Positions 2,438 to 60,018 of a stretch of 64,000 bases of DNA are shown here, in pieces; the first letter of the stretch is position 1, and each line of letters opens with the position of its first letter. A program made the translations under genes and the position numbers. The stretch comes from Cymodocea nodosa. Its lineage: Eukaryota; Streptophyta; Magnoliopsida; Alismatales; Cymodoceaceae. The stretch is taken from contig CM072339.1 in assembly GCA_036874045.1 (NCBI GenBank), positions 3,107,501-3,171,500 of the forward strand, in the 5' to 3' direction. The notes below the pieces were generated by a model. That model saw only the letters and a list, made by a program, of their open reading frames with translations. It made no database searches and had not been told where the DNA came from.

Positions 2438-3487
2438 GAAAACGTTGGACATTCCTTGAGATATTTTCCTTCTACCACTACCCACCATTTATTGGAAGTT
2501 TGTGGAGATAGTTTCTAGAGTCATGTCGATTCCAATCAAACTATGATGACTTACAATCATTACGAAGGAGTGATGGTATCATAGAAAAGAAATGTTTCTT
2601 TACCAAGCATTGAATCATCTCTTAGAAGACGATTAAAGCGTCCAACCTTAATGTCGAGTTGATGTCAATTTGCTGAAGAGGAGATCATCTTACAAACATC
2701 TAAGTTTGCAATCTAGTAGGGAGTGGAGTGTTTGACAATAAGTGATTAAGTTTTCAAATGTGTAATCACATCGCATATAGTGTTAGAGGTCTTTGATTTT
2801 CAATAGAGAGCTTGCCATTCATCAATCGTCTACCTTAAGGAACATTACCATTTATGTTTACATCTACATATTTATTATGTTTTATGTTTGTATTGTTTGT
2901 GTTTGTATTATTTGTTAGTAATTGTTAAATGTTTTGTGTTTCTTTTATTTCAGTCTAGTATGAAATGGTATGACTTTATTTTAAAACTAGTTAGTTTAAA
3001 TCTCTAAAATCATACCTAAACTATTTACTATTTGAGTTCATTTGGATGCTAAATCTATTCGTTGTTAAATTTGATATAAGTAATAATTAGAGAGCGTAAG
3101 AGTATTGATTGCATTCTCTGGGATCGCCCAATGGATGATCGAATTTAAATGTAAACAATTGTAGTGAGAGTAAGTCATAGACTTATTGATTGAGTTATTT
3201 ATAACTCAATAAGGGTAGTCTGTTGAGTTATCTGTTAACTGAACGAACTTAGTCCATTAAGTTAAGTAATAACTCAATGGAGTGAGAGGTTTTGTTAGTA
3301 AAACACTACACCTATTTCAAAGCACCATAGAATTTGATTCTAATCACTCCTTGTAGTTTGACCTATTCTTATACATTTTTTATATCTAACACTATGCACT
3401 TGTTGTAAATTAAATGAATGAATTTACTAAATTTAAATTTCATTTGGGAATTGCTTGTTTCCTTAGAAAAACTAATTTAAGCTAACA
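2438..3487 (+). mobile_element. Ty3/gypsy LTR fragment, copy B (5'-truncated)
   Basis: Aligns by eye to the second half of the 7875-9896 solo LTR: the 'accaagcattgaatcatctcttagaagac' block (2610), 'cgcccaatggatgatcg' (3125), the GTTGAGTTA motifs (3195-3280) and the 'cactatgcacttgt' block (3390). Homology starts near 2438, so about the first 800 bases of the LTR are absent. The 3' end near 3487 abuts copia sequence encoding a zinc-knuckle remnant. Confidence 0.6.
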
Positions 3488-7874: not shown

Positions 7875-9896
7875 TGTTTAGAATGAAAAAGTGCATAATA
7901 TTAATAGTTAAATAATGGTTAATTGCATTATATTTAGCTTATCATGTGAGAATTAAGTTATTATGTTACAATTGCACGATTATATGCCTTAATTAAAGAA
8001 TGTGCATAATTTCAGTAAATTAATGTTAATTAAGTATATTTTTGAATTGTCGGTGAGTTATAGGCTTTTTAATTCCTAAGTATTTGAAATGTTTGTTATT
8101 TCGGAGAGTTACATTTCATATACCAAACAATTATGTTTTGAACGTTTAAAGAATATTTTATTATTTCAAATAGGACACGTGTCATGATCTGAAAACCTGA
8201 TTTAAGTGTGGTTTTATAGTATTAAGCATGATCTATTTTATTTACATATATTTATATCATGTACAACTGCACAGTAACAACTCGTTGAGTTAGTATTTTT
8301 TTTGTTAAATGATCACATGTCAAGTCGTTGAGTTACAAGTTTAAAGATGTAAAAAGATCACGTGAGAACTTATTGAGTTAGCAAGTAAAACTATAAGTTG
8401 TATATCTGAACTCATTAAGTTAGAATTATGCACGTGTTGAATTTAAATATTTTATTATGTCACGTGAGTTGCACATGTTTAACTCGTTAAGTTAAAATAA
8501 CTATATGTGTTGAGTTAATTGAATACACATTAAGGTAATGTGTTGTGTTAGTGTTATAAGCTTATAAAATATTTATTTCACGTGATATATTATTTTATAT
8601 TAAATCTGTTGAGTTAATAGTTAAGCCAACAGAGTAAGTCTATTGATTTACACTAACTCTATAGACTAGTTATTTTCTAACATGTCATTGTTAGCAATTA
8701 TAGAAACAGAAAATTCGAAGGAAATCTAATCGATCATTTAGGTAGAAATAATTACTACTGAAAGAAATATAAAAAAAAGGAGAAAAATGAAGAAATGTGT
8801 GTGAAGGTGGAGAACCGTGCTAACTGTAGGAAGCATCGGAAGTTCCTTGAAGCTCCACAACACCACCATAATCACCAACCATCGAAGGTCTGTGAGGATA
8901 CTTTTCGAATGTTAAGTCAATTTCGAGCCAAACACGGTGACTGACACCCACTAAGATGAGTGATCACGTCATAGGAAGGAAAACCATTTTCATCAAGCAC
9001 CGATTCATATCTCAAGAGATCATAAAGCTTCTAAACTTGGTTTCAAGTTGATACCAATATACTAAAGAGGAGATCAACTTATAAGTCTCGGTTCACGATT
9101 CTATAAGGAGAGGAGGCATGACTGTAAGTGATTAAGTTTTCAGTGGTTTAATCGCGTCGTATGTAGTGATAGAAGTTCTTACCATCCATAGAGAATTTTT
9201 ACATTTCACCTTTCGTTCATCTTCAAAAACATATCAAAACAAAAATACCAAAAAACTAATTATATGTGTTTATAATAGTATTTATGTGTTGTATTGTTTG
9301 TTTTGTATTGTGATTAATGTTATCATTATCAGTATTGTGAATGTTTCGTGTTTATTTGATTAAGAAAATAGAAAATAGTTTTATTGATTACTGAAATTGA
9401 TTCATACAAAATCTTAATGGTTACTATTCGAAATATTTGAATGTTAGTATTGATTAATGATAAATTTCAGATTAACTAATATTAAAAAACTTAATTGATG
9501 TTATTTACATTCTGTGGAACCACCCAATGGATGGTTGAATTCCTCTATGAATAGTAACATTTAATTGGAAATTACAAGTTAGGCTCGTGAAGTTAACTTA
9601 AGTCTACGAGGATAGTCCGTTGAGTTAATTGTAAATCAACAAATAGCTTAATTGAACACATATAAAACTTTAGTTATAAAAATTAAAATAGTACATAATT
9701 CTTACTCAATCTTTGTAGAATCGACCTGTACTTGCACACAAATACAATAGACACTGTGCACTTGCAGTTAAAATACAAATTAGACTTAATATCTAATTTG
9801 TATGAAAAGTTGTTTGTTTATTTTAAAAGAATTTATTAATATAAGCATAAAAACAAATCAATCAAGTTTTCTGATTTAACTTTTCACAGTCGAACA
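7875..9896 (+). mobile_element. Solo LTR of the Ty3/gypsy family, copy C (complete, 2022 bp)
   Basis: Starts TGTTTAGAATGAAAAAG, identical to the minus-strand start of the LTRs at 50291 and 60013, and ends in ACA. It is flanked by TTAAC/TTGAC. It contains repeated GTTGAGTTA motifs, five CACGTG boxes (8176-8584), a TATA-like TATAAAA at about 8769, the 'aagcaccgattcat' block (8994) and the 'ccacccaatggatggttgaat' block (9520). No internal domain is attached, so it is a solo LTR left by LTR-LTR recombination, inserted in the RT-RNase H junction of copia element 1. Confidence 0.87.
8176..8584. promoter_or_regulatory. Cluster of five CACGTG (G-box) motifs in the LTR U3 region
   Basis: Exact CACGTG occurs at 8176-8181, 8359-8364, 8431-8436, 8461-8466 and 8579-8584, upstream of the TATA-like site at about 8769. 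G-boxes bind plant bZIP and bHLH factors such as ABF/HY5/PIF types (family knowledge). Whether this LTR responds to them is inference. Confidence 0.55.
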
Positions 9897-9901
9897 TTGA
9901 C

Positions 9902-10430
9902 TTATCAAACATATGAGCTTGAAGTACTTAGTTATATAGATGCATATTTGGGTAGTGATAAAGATGATGGGAAGTCCACTATATGATATGTATTCATCTT
10001 TAAAAGTATAGTTGTATCTTGGGAAAGTAAAAAGTAAAGATGTATAGCTAAATACACATAGGAAGTTGAATATGTTGCTTGTAGTATAGCTACATCACAT
10101 GCTATTTAGATCAAGAGATTTATAAATGACTTAAATCTCAATTTGATCAATGATCTAATAGAGATGTATTATGATAACCAAGTGATAATAAATCTTGTAC
10201 ATAGTAGTGTGAATATTACAAAAAGACAACATATTAATATACATTATCACTATATTCGTGATATTATGAAAAGTGGAAAAATAAAATTAAGTTATATATC
10301 CACATCTAATATGATTACTGATCCTATGACAAAGGAGATTACAGTAGAAAGATTTATTAAGTTTATAAACTTAATGAGATTAAAGAACATTTCTATAGAT
10401 GGTGGAAATGAAGAACATTTTCATAAATAG
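9902..10430 (+). pseudogene. Ty1/copia element 1: RNase H C-terminal part (decayed)
   Basis: Continues element 1 after the solo LTR: YELEVLSYIDAYLGSDKDDG (9913-9972), then the EVEYVACSIA block that contains the RNase H glutamate (10062-10091), then a frame open over 10143-10430 with YYDNQVIINLVHSS and QHINIHYHYIRDIM, ending in the copia signature 'MITDPMTKE' and 'FIKFINLMRL'. Several stops precede 10143. Downstream are the polypurine tract and 3' LTR start. Confidence 0.8.
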
Positions 10431-30486: not shown

Positions 30487-30822
30487 TATAACTTAAAATT
30501 TTACGCCCTTGTGGACGCGGACAACTGACCGGCCCTTACTTGCCCCGGTACGGGAGAGATATTTTTCCATTTTCTGATGGACCACGTCGGAAGTTTCCCG
30601 TTTCTTGCCAAATTTATTATTGTTATTTTGAAGGTAAAATAAAAGGATGGGATGGATTACCACCATCTTCGTCCTACGGGAACGAAGAAAAACGTGGCAA
30701 TAATGACTGGTCGGGCTGCGGAAGTAGGAGGAGCAGAGAAGAAGGAAAAGGACGAGTAGATCCGAAGGAGAGCAAAAAAGATCTCACCTTTTAACGACAT
30801 CGGCTCGCAAACATCACCAGCA
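30487..30822 (+). promoter_or_regulatory. Proximal promoter and 5' leader of the U-box gene
   Basis: GC content rises here from the AT-rich flank. An AT-rich core 'aaaataaaagg' (about 30636-30646) is the best TATA-like candidate, some 180 bases before the ATG at 30823. A short open frame at 30540-30794 ends before the main ATG and could act as an upstream ORF if transcription starts that far up; there is no evidence either way. Confidence 0.35.
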
Positions 30823-33024
30823 ATGGCGGCGGGGGCGCCGGCGTTCTCCTTTCACCACCGGCGCCGAAGGTCGCCGCTCTCCAGCACCTTCTTCCCTCCC
30901 GTTGACCTTTCCGATCGGATCCTCATCGAAACCCTCGCCTCCATCTCCGCCGACCTCCTCTCCATTTCGACTTTCTCCGCTTCTGCTCTTTTCCAGCGCA
31001 AGAACACCCGTTCCCTCACCGCCAAAGTCCGCTCCCTCCTCTCACTCTTCCACTTTCTAAGCTCGTCCGTCTCCCACAGCCTCCCGTCCGCCGCCGTCCT
31101 CTGCTTCAAGGAGCTGTACATTCTCCTCCACCGCTCGAAGCTGCTTTTCGATTACTGCTCCCAGTCGAGCCGGCTTTGGCTGCTGCTCCGCAACCGCCAG
31201 ATCTCCGCCCACTTCCACGACCTGAACGTCGAGACCTCCACTCTCCTCGACGTTTTCCCCTCTTCCTCCGAAAAGCTCAACCTCTCCATTGACCTAGTCG
31301 AGCAGATCGATCTCCTTCGGCGGCAGGCGAAGAACTCCACCCTCTACATCGACCCAAACGATGAGGCGCTGAGGATGAAGATCTTGGAATTCTTGGAGAA
31401 TTTCGAGAAAGGGGTTGAACCTGAGGAAGAAGAGCTGAGGACGGCCTTTATCGAAAAATTGGGCATCGTGGACGCGCGGATTTGCAGAACGGAGATCGAA
31501 TTCCTGGAGGAACAGATCTATAACCAGGAGGACGAGGTGGACACCTTCGTCCTTCAAGGAGTCGTCGCCCTGGCGAGGTACGCGAGGTTCTTGCTCTTCG
31601 GGTTCGGGCTGGAGGTAGATTTCAGGAAGTTCGGGTCATTCATCAGCGGGCGGAGCAGCCCGGTCAAGGGGGTGGTACTCCAGGAGTTGGGAGGCGACGA
31701 CGAGACGGAGAGCTTCGTGGCGATCCCCAAGGATTACGTCTGCCCGGTGTCGCTGGATCTGATGAAGGACCCGGTGGTGGTGTCAACGGGGCAGACTTAC
31801 GACCGGGAGTCGATCTTGAGGTGGATGGACGAGGGACACGACACTTGTCCCAAGTCCGGCCTGCCCCTGGCTCACAAGAGGCTGATCCCGAATCGGGCGT
31901 TGCGGTATGTGATATCGCAGTGGTGCATCGCCAACTCCGTGGCCTACGATCCCCCGGAGAGCTCCGACTACAACGGTGGCGCTGTGGCGCCAGCCGCCAA
32001 GGCCAGCAAGGCTGCAGTGGAGGCGAACAAGTCCACTACCAGGTTGTTGGTCGAGCTGCTGTCGAGTGGAAGTCGGGACGCCAAGACAACTGCCGCCCGA
32101 GAGATGCGTCTGCTGGCGAAGACGGCGAGGGAGAACCGCGCATACATTGCGGAAGCTGGGGCCATCCCCTTGCTCCGACGGTTGCTTCCGTGCGATAACC
32201 CGGTGGCGCAGGAGAATTCGGTGACCGCCCTGCTCAACTTATCCATATACGAGAAGAACAAGAGCAAGATCATGGAAGAGGAGGGGTGCTTGAGAGCAAT
32301 CGTTGACGTTTTAAATAATGGAATGACGAAGGAGGCGAAGGAGAACGCGGCGGCGACGCTGTTCAGCCTCTCGGTCGTGCACGATTACAAGAAGCGGATA
32401 ACCGACGAAGACGGCGCTGTGGAAGGGCTGACCAAGTTGTTGAGACAAGGAACCCCAAGAGGAAAAAAGGATGCGGTCATGGCGTTGTTCAATTTATCCA
32501 CGCATGCAGAGAACTGCAAATTCATCGTGGATTCCGGTGCAGACGCCGCTTTGGTAGATGCTCTGGAAAATGAAGGCGTGGCAGAGGAGGCCGCCGGGGT
32601 GCTGGCATTGTTGGCAAGACAGAAACCCGCTGCGGAAGCGATTGCATCGCGGCCTTCTGCGATCAACAAATTGGTAGGGCTGTTACGACGAGGCACGCCT
32701 AAGGCGAGGGAGAATGCAGTTGCAGCATTGTTGGAGATGTGCCGCAGCGGGGGCCCGTCGGTCACCGGGAAGGTAGCCTTGGCGCCGGGTATCGGCGCGT
32801 TGTTACAAACCTTGTTATCCTCTGGGACCAAGAGAGCGAGGAGGAAATCGTCGTCACTGGCGAGGCTGTTCCAGCGACGCGAGGCATCCGGCGAAATCGC
32901 CTACGGAGGATGGGCAGCGGAGTTCCCTTTGCTTAGGAGGCCCTCCAACAGGAGGGCGCGGCCTTCCGGCGGGGAGTCGTCTGACGTGTCGGTGGTGGTA
33001 CCCATAACTGTACCTGTACCATAG
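30823..33024 (+). CDS. U-box and ARM-repeat E3 ubiquitin ligase, PUB16/PUB17 (ACRE276) type, 733 aa
   Basis: Single intact exon with start context 'accagcaATGGCG'. Residues about 25-290 form the helical UND domain typical of this PUB class. The U-box is at 301-369 (IPKDYVCPVSLDLMKDPVVV, TGQTYDRESILRWMD, CPKSGLPLAHKRLIPN, ISQWC), with the proline, tyrosine and tryptophan expected for E2 contact in place. ARM repeats run from about 406 to 690 (AGAIPLLRRLL, ENSVTALLNLSIYEKNK, ENAAATLFSLS, KKDAVMALFNLS). A basic, low-complexity tail ends the protein. The length matches Arabidopsis PUB17 and tobacco ACRE276 (about 730). Relatives are positive regulators of cell death and defence, acting as RING-like E3s that transfer ubiquitin from an E2 to a substrate bound by ARM repeats (family knowledge); the role here is inferred. 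It is strongly GC-rich against its AT-rich surroundings. An AATAAA lies at 33483-33488. The family call is firm; the exact orthologue is not proven. Confidence 0.95.
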   Translation: MAAGAPAFSFHHRRRRSPLSSTFFPPVDLSDRILIETLASISADLLSISTFSASALFQRKNTRSLTAKVRSLLSLFHFLSSSVSHSLPSAAVLCFKELYILLHRSKLLFDYCSQSSRLWLLLRNRQISAHFHDLNVETSTLLDVFPSSSEKLNLSIDLVEQIDLLRRQAKNSTLYIDPNDEALRMKILEFLENFEKGVEPEEEELRTAFIEKLGIVDARICRTEIEFLEEQIYNQEDEVDTFVLQGVVALARYARFLLFGFGLEVDFRKFGSFISGRSSPVKGVVLQELGGDDETESFVAIPKDYVCPVSLDLMKDPVVVSTGQTYDRESILRWMDEGHDTCPKSGLPLAHKRLIPNRALRYVISQWCIANSVAYDPPESSDYNGGAVAPAAKASKAAVEANKSTTRLLVELLSSGSRDAKTTAAREMRLLAKTARENRAYIAEAGAIPLLRRLLPCDNPVAQENSVTALLNLSIYEKNKSKIMEEEGCLRAIVDVLNNGMTKEAKENAAATLFSLSVVHDYKKRITDEDGAVEGLTKLLRQGTPRGKKDAVMALFNLSTHAENCKFIVDSGADAALVDALENEGVAEEAAGVLALLARQKPAAEAIASRPSAINKLVGLLRRGTPKARENAVAALLEMCRSGGPSVTGKVALAPGIGALLQTLLSSGTKRARRKSSSLARLFQRREASGEIAYGGWAAEFPLLRRPSNRRARPSGGESSDVSVVVPITVPVP

Positions 33025-46559: not shown

Positions 46560-47540
46560 AACTAGAAAGGCAACCTTAATACTTAATCTCTTAAACAAGT
46601 TATCAAGACTTTTCCTTAATAAACTGAATATACTTTTATGTGTTTTTTAGTTAAGATCTTCGTAACAATGCACACATAAATATAAAAATATAGTTGACAC
46701 TCATATTCAAAATTAAGAAACTTTCCTTGAAAATTTACTTAAGGAAAACAAATTCAACTAATTCAAAAATTCAAGTCTATAATTCCAAATTTCAATACTA
46801 TAATATAGTAATTGTAAAAATAGATAATAAGAACTTTTCTTTTTCTAAACATAAGTAAAGTAGGTAAAAAAATTAAAAATAGACCATAGTTAAGATGAAA
46901 CATACTAAAATGGACTTTTTAACATCAAAAAATATACAGATGCTAAGATTTAATCTTAATTTGTAGAATTGATTTTCATCTAAAGGTTTTGTGAACAAAT
47001 CTGTAAGTTGTTTAGTGGTAGATACATGATTTAACTTATATTCCCTGTAATCATATTATCTCTTAAAAAATGATGTCGAACATTTATATGTTTAGTTCTA
47101 CTATGTAAAATAAGGTTTTTAGACAAATTAATTATTGAACTATCATTACAATAAATATGTGTAGAACTATAGGACATACTAAAATTATTTAGGATCTATT
47201 TCATTCAAAGAATGAGTACAACAGAGTACAACTACCACATATTCAACATCTATAATAGATAAGGCTGCATAATTTTGTTTTTTACTAAACCATTATACTA
47301 AAAAAATTTCTAATAATTGACAAGTATCACTAGTATTCTTTCTCTTAGATTTACAGCCTACAAAATCAACATCATTATATCCAACCAAATTTAATGAGCT
47401 ATTCTTAAAATAAAATAAACCAAAATTTGCAATTCCATGTAGATATCTAAATTTTTTTTTAATAACTATAAGATGTGATTCTTTAGGATTAAAATGATAT
47501 CTAACACAAAAAAACACTAAATATAATATCAGGTCTACTA
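46560..47540 (-). pseudogene. Minus-strand copia RNase H end, extra copy
   Basis: The frame 47293-47517 reads NPKESHLIVIKKKFRYLHGI, ANFGLFYFKNSSLNLVGYND, VDFVGCKSKRKNTSDTCQLL, the end of RT and start of copia RNase H. Further C-terminal RNase H sequence follows down to about 46950, including the stretch that matches the 'L-L-D-x-F-T-K-L' region near 46975. It is a diverged duplicate of 47551-48427, offset by about 985 bases. Confidence 0.7.
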
Positions 47541-47550
47541 ACTAAAACAA

Positions 47551-48432
47551 GAGGCAACTTCAAGACTTAATTTTTCTAATAGATTGTTAATAACTTTCCT
47601 TTAATAAACTGTACATATTGTCTATGTGTTTTTTAGCTAAAATTTTCAATAAAGGTATATACATAAGTAACAAAATATAGTTAGTACACATATTGAATCA
47701 ATTTGACTTTCTTTAAGTAAAATTTTCTAAATATTTCTTAAATAAATTGACTTCAATAAAAATCAAAATTTCATAAATTCTTAACTACCAATAAACATTA
47801 ATTTTAGAGTAGATATTTTGAGTTTTTCTAAATATATAAAGAAATTAAATTCTAAACTCTTTTTTAACAAACCAAAATATTATATAATGAACAAGACAAT
47901 TAAATATCAGATAACCTACAGATACCAAGTCCTAATCATAATTTTGAAAAAGTATTTTCATCTAAGAGTTTAGTGAAAAAATCGATTAATTGTTTTATGG
48001 TTGGAATAAAATTTAATGTTATATTTCCTTTTATCACATTATCCCTTAAAAAATAATGTCTAATTTCTATATGTTTAGATCATAAGTGTAAAACAAGATT
48101 TTTACACAAACTTATTGTAGAACTACTATCACAGAAAATCTTAGTTGGTTCATAGGTTAAGTTGAAATCTTTTAAAGTTTGTTTGATCCACAGGATTTGA
48201 GCACAATAAAGTGCAACATCTATATATTCAGCTTCCATTGTGGATAATGCTATATAATTTTGTTTTTTATTAAACTATGATACTAAGGAATTTCCTAATA
48301 ATTGACAAGTGCTACTAATATTTTTTCTTTCAGACTAACATCCTGCAAAATCAGCATCACTATAACCTATTAAATTTAAAGAACTATGTTTAAAGTAAAA
48401 GAATTTGAAATTGATGGTTTCTAATAGATATT
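47551..48432 (-). pseudogene. Minus-strand SIRE-like copia: RNase H C-terminal part (continues the RT at 60019)
   Basis: Minus-strand reading from 48432: FKFFYFKHSSLNLIGYSDAD, FAGC, KNISSTCQLLGNSLVS, NYIALSTMEAEYIDVALYCA, QILWIKQTLKDFNLTYEPTK, SKHIEIRHYFLRDNVIKGNI, QLIDFFTKLLDE. This is the copia RNase H order, with catalytic residues D-A-D and E-A-E-Y visible and a few stops. It joins in frame to the RT segment at 60019-60990 once the gypsy element is removed. Confidence 0.82.
48428..48432 (+). repeat. Target-site duplication of the gypsy element, left copy (ATATT)
   Basis: ATATT abuts the left LTR and is identical to 60014-60018. Copia sequence joined across one copy reads in frame (KKIFKYLLETINFKFFY on the minus strand). 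Confidence 0.93.
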
Positions 48433-50291
48433 TGTTTGGTTTTCCTAGTACTACACTAGAAAAACTTGGATTTGTTACTTCTATTTTTACTTAGTTAATT
48501 TATCTTTATGTCTATTCTTTCTTTTAGAAGTAAACAAACAACCTTTAATACAATTTAGATATTAATTCCAATTTGTACTTTAACTATAAGTGCATAGTGT
48601 CTATTGTATCAATGTGCAAGTACAGGTCGATCCCATAGGGAATTGCTGACAAATTTAAGAAATGTTTGATTGTGAACAATTCAAATTTATATTCAATAAG
48701 CACTCCGTTAAGTTACAGTTAACTCAACAGACTAAGTTCGTTGAATTATAGCTAACTCAACGGACTATCCTCATGGACTTAAGTTAACTCCACGAGCCTG
48801 TCTCTTTATAATACTACTATTTACAAAGGAATTCGGCCAACCATTGGGCGATTCCACAGATTGTAAATAACATCAATTAAACTTTTTAATGCTAGTTAAC
48901 ATTGGATTTATCATTAAGTAATACTAACATTCAGATGATTCAAACAGTAACCATTAAAATCTTTAAGTTGTTTTGTACGAACCAATTTCAATAAACTGTA
49001 AAATTAAAACTAATATAAAACAATCATAAAACTGATACAGATAACATTAATCACGATCCAACACAAACAATACAACACTCAAATACAACATACAAACAAA
49101 GATAAATTGTTTTTGGTATTTTTGTTTTTTATGTAATGGGCAAAAGGTGAAATGTAAAGTAACCTCACTTGACAGTAAATACTTCCGACACTACTTGCAA
49201 CGTGATTACACCACTGAAAATTAAACCACTTACAATTCTGTCTCCTCTCCTTATAGAATCGCGAGTCCAGAATTGCAAGATGATCTCCTCTTCAGCATAC
49301 AGGCATCAACCCGAAGTCAAGGCTAAAAGCTTTACGATCTCCTGAAATATGAGTCGACGCTTGGTGAAAATGTCTTCCCTTCCCGCGACGCGATCACTCC
49401 TCACAGTGGTTGTCAGGCACTGTGTTTGGCTTGAAATCGACCCGACATCAGGCAAGTATCCTCACATACCTTCGATGATTGGTGATTATGGTGGTGATAA
49501 TGATGGTTGGTGTGATACTTCAGAGAATCGCCGATACTGTTTGCAGAAATCTCGGTGCTCCTCCTCTATATACACTGGCCATCCATCAATCACACACCCT
49601 TCTTCTTTTTTTCTTCTTTCCTTTTATATTTCTTCCGTAGTAACTGCTTCTGCTTAAATGGTCGGTTGGATTTCCTTCCTTGAGATCAACGGTGATGATT
49701 TCTTTCTCCCTGCGCGATTGAATTCCTGCGTGATACGTGCAAACGTGGTTTTTCCTTCCAACTGTCTGTTCCTGCAACCGCTACAGTGGCATTTTAGAAA
49801 ATATATAGTCTGTGGAGTTACAGATAACTCAACGGTCTTTCTTCGTTGATTTAACTATAAAACACGTGCAAAAAAATAACTTAAGTTTATAATGCTAACC
49901 TAACGCGTTGCCTTAATGTTCAATATAGCAACTCAACGCGTACAATTATGTTAACTTAACGAGTTATAACTTAAGTAAATCTACTAGATCTCAACACATG
50001 TACTTCTGGAAATAAAATATTCTCTCTAAACATAACTGTTCGGCAATTTAAACATAACTATCTGAAATATCAGAAAATTCGGATACTTAAGAATTTCACA
50101 GCCTGCAACTTACCGACAGTTCATAAATGTACTAAATTAACATTAATTCCCCAAAATTAAGCAGATTCTTCAACTAAAGCATATAACAGTGCAATTATAA
50201 CATAATGGCTTAATTCTCATTTGATAAGCTAAATATTATGCAATTAACCATCATTTAACCGTTAATAATATGCACTTTTTCATTCTAAACA
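48433..50291 (-). repeat. 3' LTR of the gypsy element
   Basis: Matches 58162-60013 along its length. It has a TATAAAAGG on the minus strand at 49620-49628, GTTGAGTTA/TAACTCAAC motifs at 48708-48800 and 49815-49975, and one CACGTG at 49863-49868. Open frames inside it (49349-49849) are shared with the other LTR and show no domain. Confidence 0.93.
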
Positions 50292-50301
50292 CTTTCCCCA
50301 T
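50292..50301 (-). other. Polypurine tract of the gypsy element
   Basis: ATGGGGAAAG on the minus strand directly abuts the TGTTTAG start of the 3' LTR, as required for plus-strand priming. Confidence 0.85.
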
Positions 50302-52309
50302 ACCTAAATTTTGCTAGTCCCTTAGCAAACTAAGATCTAATTAATTGGTCTTTCAAAAAGTGCTAGAATTAATTCGTCCCCTTTTGTTTTTTTTTTTTTT
50401 CTTCTGTTTAGCATAAACATATATTCTATATGTTTCAGTAATCAACCTGTAAAGATATTTAGAATATATGTAAATTACATACAAAGTATATTATCTTCAT
50501 ATAGGTGTTAATTATATTATCGTTTGTTCTTCTTTTCATCATCTGTAATCCTGAATTTTCCAATAAGTTTTCTAGAAGAAATTTCAACAACATACGAATC
50601 AAAGTACTATCTAATTAAATCTGATTAAGACAAGTAGAATAAAGAATTGTATTTCCATTAAACAACTTCAAAAGTCAATTCAAGATTCATATTTCACCAA
50701 TTCTAGATAACAGAAAATATACTCGATTCATAAGATATCTATATTTCACAAAACACTTGTATCTTTTTAGAATAGTAAATGTTTTTTTTCTTTTCTTTTT
50801 TTTCTTTTTTTTGTGTACTTTAAAAGTTAATTTGACAAGCTTGAATCATACAAGAGCTTTCTAATGTACCCATGTAACGAGCTTTCAGTCAACAATCCCA
50901 AATCTGATCAGGATCTTAGGTTGCCAGATTTTCAAAGTCATTTTCAGGTCAACAATCCTTACATATCTATCTGCTCAAGTACAAAAGGCTCGTGATCAAA
51001 CAAGTCAATAAACTCTCAAAGTTTTTTTTCTTTTCTTTTTTTTTCTTTTTTTCTTTTTTTTTTCTAAAAATAAATGCACACACAAAACAAAACATTAATC
51101 ACATACTATATATACACGTATTTCATTAATACAAATGTAGTAAAACACCAATCTCATATAATCATGCTTCTATCATTTACTAAAAATATGAATCCATAAC
51201 AATAAGCTCATACTTTATCTATAGTTTAATAAGATCTACACATAAATCATTCTACAAGTTCAATCAGTCAAAGTAAATGTATCTTTCATCATATGTGTTT
51301 CATTTAATCTAGAATTCACATCTCAGCTCCTTCAGGACTTAAGATAATTTTCTAATTAAGCATTAAATATTCTGATTTCATTTTAAAATCGTGAAACTGT
51401 TAAACTCATGAAATTCAGAAAAATCATAAGATACTATATCTAGATTTACATAAATAATAAATTCTATAGCATCTTCTATAACCTTCTAAATATAACATTC
51501 AAGCAGTTTATAAAAATTTTATAGTCTCAATTATCAGATAGTTATAGTAAGTTCATAAAAATTTTCAATTTCCTCAAAACTTTGCAGTACCATTTTAATT
51601 CCTTTAATTAACAAACTTACATGGCTGTTACTTTAATTACCTCCCCCCCATACCTACATTTTGCATTGTCCTCAATGTAAAAGATTTGACAATAAGTACA
51701 GTAATTGTAGCAGGCATGAATAAAGTTTTGTTTGATTTAAAATTCAGGATAAGTAATTAGTTACATACCTTGTTCCATTTGTATCTCTTTCTGCATATTC
51801 TGATTTTTGATTCTGAAAAACTTTTCATTCCCAGATAAACATAGAATATAAAACAAAATAACATTTAACAGATATTAATAAATCAGTGTCTTGTGTGGAA
51901 CCCAGGCTCCTATGCCTTTGGTGGCTCACAAGCAAGCCAGTTGGTTTCCCAGAACATATACCAACAAACTGGATTGATATTTTGTTTTGTTTGTTTTTTT
52001 TTTATAAAATGAACATGAAAACTTCAAAATTCCTTTTTTTTTCTTTTTCTTTTTTTTAAAAATAAATGCAGAAGACACACGTTAAACACACAAAATCACA
52101 GCTTAAGAACATGATTGAAAAGTAGAAACAAATGGAATAAATGTATCAGTCCAAGCAAACTTTTTAGGCATAGTTCTTCTTGCTATTAATTCTGTTTTAA
52201 TGCAGTTCTTGTTCCTTTTTAATTTGTAAACATGCAATATATTATAAATTCCAAATACGAGTGTATTACCATTAATGATATGTAATGCATAAAGGGATCC
52301 TTTTTGGTT
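50302..52309 (-). other. Non-coding zone between the F-box frame and the 3' LTR, with repeated purine tracts
   Basis: No coding domain. Purine-rich tracts on the minus strand (A with scattered G) lie at about 50389-50402, 50781-50814, 51021-51065, 51989-52002 and 52027-52058. A short GC-richer island lies at 51890-51975. Confidence 0.6.
51640..51680 (-). other. Internal polypurine-tract-like motif
   Basis: The minus strand reads CATTGAGGACAATGC, then AAAATGTAGGTATGGGGGGG and AGG. The last part duplicates the context of the true polypurine tract (AAATTTAGGTATGGGG at 50292-50310). A G-run after a 'TTGAGGACAATG' block is a common post-pol signature in Athila/Tat elements (family knowledge). It may be an older or secondary priming site. 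Confidence 0.55.
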
Positions 52310-53413
52310 TCAAGGTAATGTAGCAGTTTCTATTTCTACATCTATTTCAATATACTCATCTTCCCACTTCCATTCATTCATGTCTTCCATAATCCATATT
52401 TGAAATTTCATCAGTTCATCCCACCATCTTATCAGACATAAAGTAGGATCATCTTCTTCATTATACCATATTCCTATTTGAATTTTATTAAATTTTTCAG
52501 ATGGTGGTTTAGCTATTTCACTCGGTACAGGTAAAATTTCTATATAATCATCATAACTGTCTATGCTCACTATGTATAAATCAGATCTATATGCTATTGA
52601 TATCTCCGTGACTAAATAGATATAACCATCAAGTATGACATGTGTTTGGTTAATTAATGATTTTTGTCCTAGATATATTATAATGTTTTCATTCCAAGAT
52701 ATGTTTAGAAAATTATACACACTTAAGCGTAAATCTTCACCCCAATTTCCTGTAGGTCTCCAATAATATAATTTTTCAGGAATTGTAGAATTTTTATCAG
52801 AAAATATTAAAGCTGACCCACAATTTTCAGTTGGTGCTTCAAATATATTAGGTATTCCTATATTACATTCTTCTCCTGTTATAGGATTTCTTATCAAAAT
52901 ATCAAGTAATGATAAACTTGCATACCTTGGTCTCGTCTTGTATATGATTAATCATTCATCTATCCCCATAATATGATTCATTCCTTCTAATGCATTGGGT
53001 GGAATTCCAGTAGTTTCTTCCATAGCAAGATATTCATGGGTATTTGAACTACGATTAAATGACCTTCATATGAATTCATCTCTAATCTTAGTCATTTTTG
53101 TAGCTTGTAGTCCCTGAAAATATTTTTCTTCAATACAATCTTTAATTTCCTTTGATACACAACACAGCCTGCACAGATCTTTAGCTGACAAGTTACTTAG
53201 TATTTCCCTTTGTGCATCCAACGGTAATTGCATTAATTCCATTTGTCGATTCAGTCTGAAGCTTTCCATTCTGAAGCCTTCTAGTTCCTCCAACGCTTTC
53301 TCCTTTCTCTTAAAAGTGCTGGTAACTCGTAAATAACATTCTGTTTCATATATATACTGCGCATCCATAAAGTGAATAAATCTCGTTGCAAGAACGTGAC
53401 TTGCAACGTGCAT
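52310..53413 (-). pseudogene. Captured F-box protein frame inside the gypsy element, with two in-frame TGA codons
   Basis: One reading frame of 367 codons from ATG 53413 to the stop at 52310-52312 is interrupted only by TGA at 53066-53068 (codon 116) and 52952-52954 (codon 154). Residues about 63-100 form an F-box: LPLDAQREILSNLSAKDLCR then LCCVSKEIKDCI, with the Leu-Pro start, the conserved I-L and the C-V-S-K core. Residues about 165-367 resemble an F-box-associated domain (RNPITGEECNIGIPN, YYWRPTGNWGEDLRLSVY, CLIRWWDELMKFQIWIMEDM). F-box proteins are substrate receptors of SCF ubiquitin ligases, with the F-box binding SKP1. The frame is in pol sense, lies between pol and the 3' LTR, and has no visible intron. 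A GTG-started extension upstream to 53446 is possible, but ATG 53413, or an inner Met near the F-box, is more likely. The two stops suggest decay after capture. Confidence 0.8.
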
Positions 53414-53519
53414 CGTGGTTCCTATTTTAATGGGTACGTGTACCACTACTAATTTAAAATTTTGGTAACCGCTAAACCGACGAAGTTTCGTTTGTGATTA
53501 GAAGAATAACTGTTCTGCT

Positions 53520-53700
53520 TAATCCACGAACTAACCTCGTTGAGTTATAGATTACTCAACGGAACACAGTCAGTTACTGTTGCTAACTCCACGGACTAAC
53601 TTCGTTGAGCTACAGATAACTCAACGGAGTAACCTTATATTATATTAATTACCTCGTGGAGTTTACGGTTAACTCAACGGACTTACTTCGTTGAGTTAAC
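53520..53700. repeat. Cluster of GTTGAGTTA...TAACTCAAC inverted repeats
   Basis: Successive GTTGAGTTATAGATTACTCAAC, GTTGAGCTACAGATAACTCAAC and GAGTTTACGGTTAACTCAAC palindromes, with unpaired GTTGAGTTA at the end, spaced about 60 bases apart. The same palindromes occur in the LTRs of this family (for example 48708-48765, 58434-58500 and 59540-59570). Confidence 0.7.
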
Positions 53701-53754
53701 ACTTGGCAACATCTAAGTTTCACTCTCGTAAGTTTTCTATTCTGTGTTTTTTTT

Positions 53755-54160
53755 TTTACAGGTTTAACCGACACTATGCTTCGGTCAGACCTAAATATTT
53801 TTTATTTTTTTTTATTTTTCTTTCGATTGAAACGATACTATGTTTAGGTAAAACTAATATTTTTTTCTGAAAATTAATATACAGTTTTTTTTCCGGTTTA
53901 ACCGATACTACGCTTCGGTCAGACCTAAATTTTTTTTTTTTTAATAATTTTTTTTTTTTTAATTTTCCGATTTAACCGATGCTACGCTTCGATCAAACCT
54001 AAATATTTTTTATTTTTTTATTTTTTACTTTTCTATCGGTTGGACCGATACTATGTTTCAATCAAACCAATTTTTTTAATAAAAAAAAAAATTTAATATA
54101 CAATTTTTTTTAATGTTCCGGTCATACCGATGGATCCAGTTGGTTGAACTGATAATATTT
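53755..54160. repeat. Tandem array of CGGTTTAACCGATACTACGCTTCGG-type units separated by poly-T
   Basis: Units start at about 53760, 53823, 53895, 53967, 54041 and 54115 and diverge progressively. The core contains the near-palindrome CGGTTTAACCG, then 'tactacgcttcggtcagacc', and T-rich spacers. The array lies directly after pol and before the hairpin cluster and F-box frame. Confidence 0.7.
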
Positions 54161-54227: not shown

Positions 54228-56870
54228 CTAAGTAAAGCTCGAGTAGTCCTCTACTCTGACTTCTTCTATAATTCTAAAGGAGCTTTTTGGTGTTTTCAGA
54301 ATAGATTTAAGTCTTTGTCCATTTACTTTAAATATATTCTGATTTTTAGGATTTTCAATTTCAATAGCTCCATAAGGATAAACATTTCAAACTATGTAAT
54401 GTCCTGCCCATCTAGATCTTAATTTTCTTGGATGGTTATGAAGTCTAGTCATATAAAGATATACTTCTTGTCCTATTTCAAAGTTTTTAGAAATAATTTT
54501 TCTATCATGATAGAATTTAATTTTCTCTTTATCTCTTACAGTCTTCGAATAAGCTTCATTTATAAATTCTTCTAATTCAATTAGTTGTGTTTTCCTATTT
54601 TCAGCAGCTTGATTTAAATTAGTGTTCAGAGTTTTTAATGCCCAATAAGCTTTATGTTCTATTTCAACAACTAAATGACAACATTTTCCATATACTAGCC
54701 TAAAAGGTGACATACCTAAGCTCGTTTTATAAGCAGTTCTATAAGCCCAAAGTGCATCTATCAATCTATTAGCCCAATCTGTTCTAGTAGGATTTACTAC
54801 TTTTTCCAAGATTAATTTAATTTGTTTGTTTGCACTTTCTACTTGTCCACTTGTTTGCGGATAATATGATGTTGCAATTTTGTGGTTTACTTCATATTTC
54901 TTCATTAAGACTTCAAAACTTCTATTACAGAAATGAGTTCCTCTATCACTGATAATAGCTTTAGGTATTCCAAATCTGGCAAATATATTTGTTCATATAA
55001 ATTGTATTACCATTTTGTTATCATTAGTTTTTGTAGGAATAGCTTCTATCCATTTAGATACATAATCCACCCCCAACAATATGTAATTAAATTGATTAGA
55101 CATAGGAAATGGACCCATAAAATCTATTCCCCACACATCAAAGATTTCAACCTCAACAATAGGATTAAGAGGCATCATATTCCTCTTTGATATTCTTCCT
55201 ATTTGTTGACATCTTAAACAACTTAAGCAATATTTATGAGCATCTTTGAATAGCGTTGACCAATAAAACCCACATTGCATAATTTTTGCATTAATTTTCC
55301 CTGAACCAAAATGTCCTCCACAAGCTTAGTCATGACAGAAAGACAATATGCTCGAATATTCAATTTCTGGAACACACCTCCTTAAAACCAGATCAAGACA
55401 TTTCTTAAATAAGTAAGGGTCTTCCCAATAGTAATATTTTACTCTTGAAAAAAATAATTTCTTATCCTGTCTATTCCAATCCTTAGGTGTTAAACCAGTA
55501 ACTAAGTAATTAACTATGTCGACATACCAAGGCATTGTGTTGATGGTCATTAATTATTCATTAGGAAAATTATCCTTAATTTCAATATTTGATTTTTCTA
55601 TTTGTAATCTTGATAAATGATTTGCTACTACATTCTCACAACCTTTTTTATATTTAATTTCTAAATCAAATTCTTGCAATAATAATATCCATCGGATCAA
55701 TCTAGGTTTAGTTTCTTTTTTCTTTATTAGATGTTTTAGGGTTGAATGATCCGTGTATACTATTACTTTAGCTCCAATCAGATATGATCTAAACTTTTCT
55801 AAAGCAAACACAACAGCTAATAATTCTTTTTCAGTAGTTGTGTAATTAACTTGAGCATCATTTAAAGTTTTGCTTGCATAATGAATCACTCTAGGAGATT
55901 TTTCTATCTTCTGTCCTAACACTACTCCTATAGCAAAATCAGAAGCATCGCACATTAATTCAAATGGATGGTTCCAATTAGGTGCTTGAATTATAGGAGT
56001 TGAAATTAAGCTAGTCTTAAGTTTGAAAAATGATTCCTTGCAATTTTTATCAAAGTTAAATAGAACATCTTTTAATAGATTAGTTAAAGGTCTAGCTATC
56101 TTGCTAAAGTCTTTAATAAATCTTCTATAAAAACCAGCATGTCCTAGAAATGATCTAATATCTTTTACTGATTTAGGTTTTAGTAGATTAGAAATTACTT
56201 CTATTTTAGCTTTATCTACTTCCAGAAATATATAGGTTAATTCATGAGGTAAATGTTTTAATTCTAAATGCTGCCCATCAGAAGCTAGAGCTACTAATTG
56301 AACATCATCATTTTTTAAATTAATTTCTTCCTGATCTCCTTCTATATTTATGCTTTAACTTTCTTCTAAAGTTTCAGAATTGATTTACATATTTAATTCT
56401 TCTTGAATCACATCATCTAACATATCTCCTTCATCCTCTAAAAAGTCTATGGTATGTAAGGACATTTCTAACTCCTTAATCCTTTCTGGTTTGAAAATAT
56501 TTAATTGAGTATCCTCATTACCATATGCTAACTTCATTACTCTAGTTTTACAATTTATAACAGCCCCTGATGTTGCTAAAAATGGCATTCCCAAAATTAA
56601 AGATGTATCACAATTTTTATGCTTAATTTGTTGGAAATCCAAAATTACAATATCAATAGGATATATAAAATTCTTGATTTTAATTAAGACATCCTCTATT
56701 TTTCCTCTAGGGTATCTTATACTTCTATCAGCTAATTGAATAACCGTACTAGTAGGAGTTAAGCCTTCTAATCCTAAGGATGCAAATATATCACTTGGCA
56801 TAATATTTATACATGCACCTAAGTCTATTAAGGTTCTTTCTAGAATGATATTTCCTATGGTGCATGATAT
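54228..56870 (-). pseudogene. Gypsy pol: protease, residual RT, RNase H and integrase in one frame, with RT core deleted
   Basis: A single frame runs from about 56870 to the TAG at 54228-54230, broken by stops at 56385, 56355, 55554, 55326, 54993 and 54387 (all in the same frame). The protease has the catalytic LIDLGACINIMPSD at about 56840-56795 and QLADRSIRYPRGKIEDVL, SLILGMPFLA after it. RT keeps only its entry ([16 protein letters not shown]) joined at about 56220 to its end ([35 protein letters not shown]). The fingers, palm and catalytic aspartates are missing, and the deletion preserves frame. RNase H (55955-55554) shows [43 protein letters not shown]. Integrase shows [37 protein letters not shown] and [13 protein letters not shown], giving D, D and E. 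The C-terminal end 'FKVNGQRLKS' is near 54335-54306. It cannot be an active polymerase. Confidence 0.9.
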
Positions 56871-58036
56871 AACAGGGATTCCAGGATCAGATAACTTTTT
56901 AGGAATTTGTGGCAGAAATAGGGAACTACTTTGCTCAGCAAAAAAACCTTTCTAAAAACTTTTCGCTCTCTTTTCTTAGTACACCAATCCTTTAGAAATT
57001 TAGCACAAGGTGGCATATTCTGCAATAGATCTAACAAAGGAATGTTAACTTGTACTTTTTCAAAAATATCTCTGATTTTTTCTAGTTTTTCAAGAATTGT
57101 TTGTTGTAATCTTTCAGGATAGGGTGCTAAAGATTTTGATTTCAAAGACTCTTTTTCTTTCAGTTGATTTGTTTGATTATTTTTAGCTTCAATTGCATAT
57201 TCAGATTGTTCTTTAGTGATTTCTAGATTTTCAGCTATTACATTTTCATTATCATTTTGATTTTTACTCTTGTCCACCTTCATATCATTTTCATTTTGAG
57301 TTTTTGGTGGTATATCAGTTCCAGATCTTAATGTTACACATACATCTTCCAGATTTTCGTTACTTTCATGATGTTTTTGTATATCATTTTTGTGATTATG
57401 ATCTTCAATTATTTTTAGTTTTAAAGTGCATTCTTTAAATTCTCTTACATTAGTGTTTTCTGTTTGTTGTATATTTTGCAAGTTGTGCAGGTTTATAACA
57501 TTATAATTCTCATTGTCCTGTTGCATAACTTGTATTTTCATTGCATTTTCGTCTAATACTTTTAATTTTGTTTCCAGATCATCTAATTTCATTGCATTCA
57601 ATTTTTGATCAATTTTCTTTATGGCTTTTTCAGTTTCGTAAATTATATCATGTTTAGGTTCTGAATATGATTCCTTATAATTTAATTGGTTGACTTCTTG
57701 TTGTTGACACACAAAGTATTCCAGTTTGTCCAGATTTTGCTCTATACTATGCTCCAGTCTGTCATAGCTATCTCAAACTTCAATGTCTCTCATCATATTA
57801 TACATTCTATACTGACCATCAGTTGGGTAAACTATAGGATTCTCATACTTGTCTCTATTATATTGAGGATAATTCATTTGTTGTTCATGGGATCTAACAA
57901 TCTGTAAATGTCTCAATTTAAAACAATCAGAAATGTCGTGTCCTTCAGAATTGCAGAATTCACATATGCTAATTAAAGGTTTCAGAAATCTTTGAGCATA
58001 AGCATATGCCATATTCTCGATTACAGAAGAAAACAC
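56855..58036 (-). pseudogene. Gypsy gag remnant: zinc knuckle and C-terminal region; N-terminal gag absent
   Basis: The frame from 58036 starts close to the primer site (about 100 bases) and reaches a CCHC knuckle at once: CEFCNSEGHDISDC (about residues 26-39). After an in-frame TGA at 57773-57775 it continues in the same frame through a polar Asn/Gln/Glu-rich stretch into YPERLQQTILEKLEKIRDIF, then QVNIPLLDLLQNMPPCAKFL, the conserved end of Athila-type gag before protease. Close to a T-homopolymer at about 56940-56946 the frame shifts into pol. The main capsid region expected upstream of the knuckle is missing, so this gag is deleted. Confidence 0.85.
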
Positions 58037-58083
58037 ACAACTCTAGCTATTAAAATGAAACAGTTCTAACAGTTGCTTATATT

Positions 58084-58137: not shown

Positions 58138-58154
58138 CCCCGGCAACGGCGCCA
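58138..58154 (-). other. Primer-binding site complementary to tRNA-Asp
   Basis: In plus sense CCCCGGCAACGGCGCCA equals the 3' end of plant tRNA-Asp(GUC) including the CCA tail. On the minus strand it therefore lies 7 bases inside the 5' LTR as a 17-base primer site. A complete tRNA gene is not present. The tRNA-Asp primer is typical of Athila/Tat-type gypsy elements. Confidence 0.92.
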
Positions 58155-58161
58155 TAAAACT

Positions 58162-60013
58162 TGTTTGGGTTTTCCCAGCACTACACTAGAAAAACTTCAA
58201 TTTGTTACTTCTATTTTTAATTAGTTAATTTATCTTTATGCATATTCTTTCTTTTAGAAGTAAACAAACAACCTTTAATACAATTTAGATATTAATTCTA
58301 ATTTGTACTTTAACTACAAGTGCATAGTGTCTATTGTATCAGTGTGCAAGTACAGGTCAATCCCACAGGGAATTGCTGACGAATTTAAGAAATGTTTGAT
58401 TGTGAACAATTCAAATTTATATTCAATAATCACTCCGTTGAGTTACAGTTAACTCAATGGACTAAGTTCGTTGAGTTATAGCTAACTCAATGGATTATCC
58501 TCGTGGACTTAAGTTAACTCCATGAGCCTGTCTCTTTATAATACTACTATTTACAAAGGAATTCGGCCAACCATTGGGCGATTCCACAGATTGTAAATAA
58601 CATCAATTAAGCTTTTTAATGCTAGTTAACATTGGATTTATCATTAAGCAATACTAACATTCAGATGATTCAAACAATAACCATTAAAATCTTTAAGTTG
58701 TTTTGTATGAACCAATTTCAGTAAACTGTAAAATTAAAACTAACATAAAACAATCATAAAACTGATACAGATAACATTAATCACGATACAACACAAACAA
58801 TACAACACTCAAATACAACATACAAACAAAGATAAATTGTTTTTGGTATTTTTGTTTTTTATGTAATGGGCAAAAGGTGAAATGTAAAGTAACCTCACTT
58901 GACAGTAAATACTTCTGACACTACTTGCAATGCGATTACACCACTGAAAATTAAACCACTTACAATTCTGTCTCCTCTCCCTATAGAATCGCGAGTCCAG
59001 AATTGCAAGATGATCTCCTCTTCAGCATATAGTCATCAACTCGAAGTCAAGGCTAAAAGCTTTACGATCTCCTGAAATATGAGTCGACGCTTGGTGAAAA
59101 TGTCTTCCCTTCCCGCGACGCGATCACTTCTCACAGTGGTTGTCAGGCACTGTGTTTGGCTCAAAATCGACCCGACATCAGGCAAGTATCCTCTCAGACC
59201 TTCGATGATTGGTGATTATGGTGGTGATAACGATGGTTGGTGTGATACTTCGGAGAATCGCCGGTATTGTTTGTAGAAAGCTCGATGCTCCTCCTCTGTA
59301 TACACTGGCCATCCATCGATCACACACCCTTCTTCTTTTTTTCTTCTTTCCTTTTATATTTCTTCCGTAGTAACTGCTTCTGCTTGAATGGTCGGTTGGA
59401 TTTCCTTCCTTGAGATCAACGGCAATGATTTTTTTCTCCCTACGCGATTGAATTCCTGCGTGACACATGTAAACGTGGTTTTTCTTTCCAACTGTCTGTT
59501 CCTGCAACCGCTACAGTGGCATTTTAGAAAATATATAGTCCGTGGAGTTACAGATAATTCAACGGACTTTCTTTGTTGATTTAACTATAAAACACGTGCA
59601 AAAAAATAACAACTTAAGTTTATAACGCATTGCCTTAATGTTCAATATAGCAACTCAACACGTACAGTTATGCTAACTTAACAAGTTATAACTTAAGTAA
59701 ATCTACGAGATCTCAACACGTGTACATCTGGAAATAAAATATTCTCTCTAAACATAAATGTTCGGCAATTTAAACATAACTATCCGAAATATCAAAAAAT
59801 TTGGATACTTAAGAATTTCACAGCCTGTAACTTACCGACAGTTCATAAATGTACTAAATTAACATTAATTCCCCAAAATTAAGTAGATTCTTCAACTAAA
59901 GCATATAACAGTGCAATTATAACATAATGGCTTAATTCTCATATGATAAACTAAATATTCTGTAATTAACCATCATTTAACCATTAATAATATGTAATTT
60001 TTCATTCTAAACA
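58162..60013 (-). repeat. 5' LTR of the gypsy element
   Basis: Matches the LTR at 48433-50291. CACGTG motifs lie at 59593-59598 and 59717-59722, upstream of the TATA box. Palindromic GTTGAGTTA/TAACTCAAC elements lie at 58434-58525 and 59540-59570. Confidence 0.93.
59350..59358 (-). promoter_or_regulatory. TATA box of the 5' LTR promoter
   Basis: TATAAAAGG on the minus strand, conserved at 49620-49628 in the other LTR. A purine-rich start region follows. Transcription would begin some 30 bases further toward lower coordinates (inference). Confidence 0.6.
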
Positions 60014-60018
60014 ATATT
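60014..60018 (+). repeat. Target-site duplication of the gypsy element, right copy (ATATT)
   Basis: Identical to 48428-48432 and directly adjacent to the LTR terminus. Confidence 0.93.

Follow-up and report, generated by a model that had tools for sequence, protein, structure and literature searches.

Sense open reading frames (ORFs) located between pol and the 3' long terminal repeat (LTR) are known from Athila-type retrotransposons with env-like or other additional ORFs (aORFs). Such aORFs can be present in all or most copies of an element, and splicing of the env-like ORF has been reported for barley Bagy2 (PMC7264820, in the portion available to us). While the existence of these extra ORFs is established, their role in the env-like position of plant LTR elements is unsettled. 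We describe here an 11.6 kb Athila-like Ty3/gypsy element of Cymodocea nodosa, located on the minus strand at positions 60013-48433 of a 64,000 nucleotide stretch of contig CM072339.1 (assembly GCA_036874045.1, positions 3,107,501 to 3,171,500; this stretch is referred to as the window). The ORF in this element differs from those described previously in being an F-box gene and not env-like, and no F-box aORF is mentioned in the same portion of PMC7264820. We consider it probable that an F-box gene was acquired by a Ty3/gypsy (Athila-like) LTR family, which has since kept it in the env-like position as an accessory gene. The best reading of this accessory gene is that it encodes a predicted substrate receptor of a Skp1-Cullin-F-box (SCF) ubiquitin ligase.

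Related cases differ in the gene involved or in its distribution. In Phalaenopsis, gypsy elements that carry an m6A demethylase domain have likewise taken up a host-type domain and kept it over repeated cycles of copying, but the domain is a different one, and the main text on the accompanying screen of 121 angiosperm genomes mentions no F-box as far as it was accessible (PMC9289625). In Thlaspi arvense, TaChr6G576 is an F-box "LTR-gene" associated with an LTR element; in contrast to the gene described here, it is a single gene that was later tandemly duplicated, and the accessible sections of PMC8764390 describe no element family, splicing or constraint. Host genes are found within LTR elements in rice and sorghum (PMC3726574) and in maize Bs1 (named in PMC7264820), but the rice and sorghum captures are mostly described gene by gene in the text at hand, whereas here one gene is common to a large family. 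Another F-box-type protein encoded by a selfish replicator of plants is the silencing suppressor P0 of poleroviruses, which is F-box-like (excerpts of PMC7582759 and PMC6593998); this is an RNA-virus protein, and the likeness is one of type. Literature searches (supplementary lists not covered) turned up no LTR family that carries an F-box gene, and the term F-box is absent from the main texts of PMC11963269, PMC9289625, PMC12786077, PMC3726574 and PMC6317226.

In the window, the F-box gene is positioned between integrase and the 3' LTR in the sense of pol. The original prediction had given it a frame at 53413-52310 with two internal TGA codons. The sense and both TGAs are correct, and the frame is on the minus strand, but the end at 52310 is a third TGA: other copies place the coding exon at 53242-52103, the C-terminus extends beyond this codon, and the predicted N-terminal part is mostly leader exon. 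The three in-frame TGAs of the coding exon are at 53065-53063, 52954-52952 and 52312-52310. The openness of this frame is far from chance, with 390-codon stretches of the window averaging 25-29 stops per frame and the F-box stretch having as few as 2. Based on LTR divergence and two mutation models, 0.9-2.1 new stops are expected over 390 codons; as the 3 observed are close to the number expected since insertion, the window frame may have been intact when it landed. The Pfam F-box profile scores 41.3 bits on the window frame and 42.0-42.8 bits on intact copies, far over the cut-off of 20.5. The gene is inside a single element, as had been claimed: the two LTRs are 95% identical (Kimura two-parameter distance 0.047, ends TG..CA), and ATATT target-site duplications, a primer binding site (PBS) and a polypurine tract (PPT) are present. 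When the flanks are joined together, they match a copia relic (46858-47529) through the insertion site.

The same gene is found in the same place in many other copies. In the 374.6 Mb host assembly, the Pfam F-box profile scored 150 of 4218 candidates, and host loci cut out around F-box matches were given L-numbers (L005, L018 etc.). Seven of the first eight loci cut out match the window F-box protein (L009 does not). Twenty loci, those with the longest open frames among the 150 matches, were fetched, and 19 carry the window-type F-box gene (72-94% protein identity) with element DNA in the same orientation alongside; the exception, L032, has the same gene as L009. A 3' LTR in the same orientation lies 1.3-2 kb downstream of the F-box in 16 of these 19, while L013, L015 and L021 have no such LTR but have an LTR and/or integrase upstream; same-orientation integrase is in view in 8 of the 19. 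A protein search of the host genome scored 106 of 9532 candidates, all of which share 89-100% identity with the query across 350 residues or more. The observation behind the original prediction is thus confirmed, and its interpretation as F-box cargo shared by a family is supported; it also withstood the refuting conditions set for it, since an F-box profile matches and further members of the family have the segment at this position. LTR pairs of copies that are partly seen diverge by 2.8% (L020), 4.0% (L018) and 4.9% (L029).

The gene consists of a leader exon, a GT-AG intron of approximately 1.5 kb and a coding exon. Intron length is approximately 1.46-1.59 kb in most copies (longer in L030). 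The exon 1 end GTATGTAATTAATC, with donor GTATGT, is present in 12 of 13 intron-bearing copies with exon 1 found (none was recognised in L017), and the acceptor ACAG precedes exon 2 in 13 of 15 copies (it is altered in L013 and L022). In the window copy, L015, L020, L023 and L025, the exons are joined at exactly the splice point, which in the window falls between 53252 and 53251. A genome-wide search allowing up to 3 mismatches gives 3185 sites for the exon-donor motif and 205 for the joined motif (the window copy included), compared with 0 for backward-pattern controls. The joined type accounts for 40 of the 106 protein matches, a proportion favoured by a query that is itself joined. Such precise losses are, judged from sequence, the signature left when spliced RNA is reverse-transcribed, and the large number of precisely joined copies indicates that this has happened repeatedly. 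Since the tree pairs intron-less copies with intron-bearing sisters (the window copy with L018, support 0.973; L015 with L024, support 0.970), the intron appears, recombination left aside, to have been lost on three or more occasions; co-packaged RNAs that recombine could give the impression of separate losses.

To assess coding constraint, 23 full-length copies were used: the 19 fetched loci, L005, L007, L010 and the window copy. L006, L008, L011 and L012 (partial) and L009 and L032 (no match) were left out, and 6 frame-shifted copies were removed for codon tests, leaving 17. Seven of the 23 copies are intact. Four intact pairs are 8-13% apart, a divergence at which simulation gives 1.7-5.8 stops per lineage if neutral. 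In 29 shallow pairs, differences are spread evenly over first, second and third codon positions (0.35/0.31/0.34), and in 46 deep pairs they are skewed to third positions (0.34/0.23/0.43); a hand sum over eight disjoint pairs gives 384/287/481. By these sequence comparisons, the F-box gene was under coding constraint before insertion. Among the 106 protein matches, there is a mean of 1.25 stops per copy (frameshifts uncounted), and 30 copies have none, compared with 30.5 by Poisson. Because the stops fit a Poisson distribution, the copies apparently landed intact and decayed afterwards.

Several results weigh against this reading. The ratio of nonsynonymous to synonymous substitutions (dN/dS), which the original prediction had proposed as a check, falls with depth as calculated by the Nei-Gojobori method (NG86), from 0.83 to 0.34-0.39 by dS bin and through 0.67, 0.48 and 0.37 by distance, but NG86 is biased, and one of five control frames (antisense, shift 1) falls too, from 0.71 to 0.48. 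Because the five control frames give 0.38-0.94, the absolute values are untrustworthy. Integrase and F-box distances are only moderately correlated (r 0.48, permutation p 0.04, 7 copies), and in pairs with L015 and L019 the F-box outpaces integrase (0.07-0.09 vs 0.04-0.07), for which relaxed constraint, diversification and exchange are alternative explanations. The F-box-associated (FBA) region named in the original prediction falls under curated cut-offs: FBA_1 (PF07734) scores 13 bits in the window and 13.4-13.8 in intact copies (cut-off 21.1), and TIGR01640 scores 27.4 bits (E 1.9e-6) and 26.8-29.6 bits (E 3.9e-7 to 2.9e-6), respectively (cut-off 37.9). At these scores, the C-terminal half resembles FBA domains. 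The 3185 donor sites are motif matches, not each tied to an F-box gene, and both samples are biased to young, open copies, the 106 matches being the best-scoring and the 20 loci the longest-framed. No donor gene was found among the 106 scored protein matches, all of which are close relatives, and that the gene was captured is inferred from how closely it resembles F-box/FBA proteins of the host.

It is unlikely, in our estimation, that the F-box gene is a passive hitchhiker, caught once by a successful master element and copied along without ever being useful. A master lineage alone would yield a high copy number, the F-box is faster than integrase in some pairs, and the window copy is dead, its stops having built up at the rate predicted for the time since it inserted; but this explanation predicts neither the near-Poisson stops, with anciently dead copies not in excess, nor a codon-position skew confined to deep pairs, and it sits poorly with the retention of the F-box in two copies that lost gag-pol. 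The codon-position constraint and intact frames also indicate a protein, which makes it improbable that the segment is kept for a role at the RNA level (splicing, packaging or spacing) with the protein incidental, even though splice sites and repeats accompany it and the 3' noncoding region is retained too.

Still less credible is a later insertion of the "intron" into some copies, with the joined form ancestral: both forms are present, as this would require, but the GT-AG ends are exact, the deeper branches checked are all intron-bearing and the intron-less copies are scattered at the tips. We give practically no credence to the idea that an F-box gene entered the window copy alone in a later, separate insertion; no point in its favour was found. 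Since other family members carry the segment in the same place, this idea is refuted; the flanking repeats are 8 bp, which is at chance level. Acquisition followed by retention as an accessory gene is preferred. The similarity in codon usage between the F-box gene and pol (r 0.94) was dropped as evidence because 3' noncoding DNA gives 0.90-0.93, reflecting composition.

If the gene was retained in this manner, the element RNA would be spliced to give an F-box mRNA, and the predicted protein would bind host SKP1/ASK via its F-box while its C-terminal domain recruited a host protein to the SCF ubiquitin ligase. Removal of this target would benefit the element, as constraint and retention suggest. 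By analogy with P0 of poleroviruses and AGO1, one may only guess that the target is a silencing factor; an F-box protein, FBW2, has been linked with AGO1 (PMC9035678, accessible portion). At least two copies without gag-pol retain the F-box gene. L026 has two LTRs 4.4% apart, the duplication AACAC and the F-box gene between the LTRs, and L029 has the same gag-pol deletion joint at a different genomic place. A possible but rather doubtful extension is that the family brings along an SCF substrate receptor of its own as it multiplies, that this receptor, produced from a spliced subgenomic RNA, would remove a restraining host factor (perhaps one of silencing), and that the F-box elements without gag-pol would be satellites that keep this weapon and borrow the copying machinery. 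In comparison with other ORFs in the env-like position, this one combines a recognisable biochemical type, coding constraint, intron losses that record splicing of element RNA and many copies. The question of function becomes testable, by finding the binding partner of the F-box protein, and F-box gene counts in such genomes may be inflated by element copies.

Relatives were sought outside the host genome. The query P0001 was compared with 5.8 billion proteins, plants included, and none of 1919 word-sharing candidates reached E of 10 or less; this absence is weak because the search requires shared 5-residue words. No relative was found in viral and prokaryote contigs (four viral contigs that contain the PBS word have no element genes except a weak integrase-like match, 30% identity, E 7e-5), and PDB gave no match at E 1. 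Within the host, L018 has a second, diverged F-box stretch (9575-9979, 71% protein identity) past its 3' LTR. L006/L012 represent a truncated and diverged relative that lies, with the LTR motif close by, within a 98.8% segmental duplication. L033/L034 (host contig 12) are a 6-kb duplicate with 98.8% identity, approximately 0.19 Mb apart, containing a truncated F-box relative.

The element has the paired LTRs, target duplication, PBS and PPT of an LTR retrotransposon (Table 1). Its 5' to 3' order is gag remainder, protease, RNase H, integrase, repeat-rich spacer, F-box gene and, last, 1.8 kb that contain no long frames. Protease, RNase H and integrase are in the Ty3/gypsy order, with the reverse transcriptase (RT) core seen as extra sequence in L024 and L025, which carry approximately 860 bp more at the point (~56224) where the window copy has an RT deletion of this size with TTTCT microhomology. 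A spliced intron was rejected as an explanation for this deletion, as there is no GT-AG and TTTCT is on both ends. No additional RNase H was found by Pfam in the stretches scanned, as expected for the Athila clade; this domain marks Tat (PMC6317226). The Athila ORF-1 domain PF03078 had no Pfam match in the same stretches; it is found in 16% of Athila elements, and most are without it (PMC6317226). The element is termed Athila-like as a provisional clade placement, the RT core being deleted in the window copy. The RNase H-integrase region of the window copy has 4 stops, compared with 1.5-3.4 expected from LTR divergence.

Table 1. Positions of the features of the window element
Feature	Position	Strand	Remarks
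Target-site duplication ATATT, left copy	48428..48432	.	read by eye
3' LTR	48433..50291	-	1765/1861 identical vs other LTR
Polypurine tract GGTATGGGGAAAG	50292..50305	-	before 3' LTR
F-box gene, coding exon	52103..53242	-	379 codons, ATG to TAA (52105-52103)
Leader exon, joined to coding exon	53243..53420	-	joint at exact GT-AG position
Integrase-F-box spacer	53523..54140	-	~35-bp and ~33-bp repeat motifs, the latter present in LTRs too
Integrase, H2C2 zinc finger and core	54231..55325	-	TGA-broken
RNase H region	55557..56354	-	
Aspartic protease region	56388..56951	-	PF13650 barely over cut-off
Gag remainder	56858..58042	-	possible zinc knuckle; zf-CCHC 12.2 bits, below cut-off
Primer binding site TGGCGCCGTTGCCGGGGA	58138..58156, approximate	-	directly after 5' LTR; presumably complementary to tRNA-Asp
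5' LTR	58162..60013	-	
Target-site duplication ATATT, right copy	60014..60018	.	

No capsid domain was found by Pfam in the window gag remainder. A short gag follows the PBS in the window (58161-56800), L018 (453-1137) and L020 (784-2136), with the capsid domain not found. Because the same short gag occurs in at least two other copies, a reduced gag may be a family trait, and copies with it could depend on others.

A motif around AACTCAACGGA occurs approximately 34 times in the window, compared with 2.9 in shuffles, nearly all in the element, its LTRs and related LTR pieces (106-195, 3229-3270, 8291-9626, 48714-49852, 53546-53697 and 58444-59555); one cluster is immediately upstream of the F-box leader. 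On the plus strand, an LTR related to those of the element (75-82% similar, 7875-9831) lies between copia RT and later copia frames and is probably a solo or truncated LTR. Elsewhere in the window, 30760-33024 holds a host gene without introns that encodes a U-box/ARM protein of PUB type and is GC-rich, unlike its surroundings.
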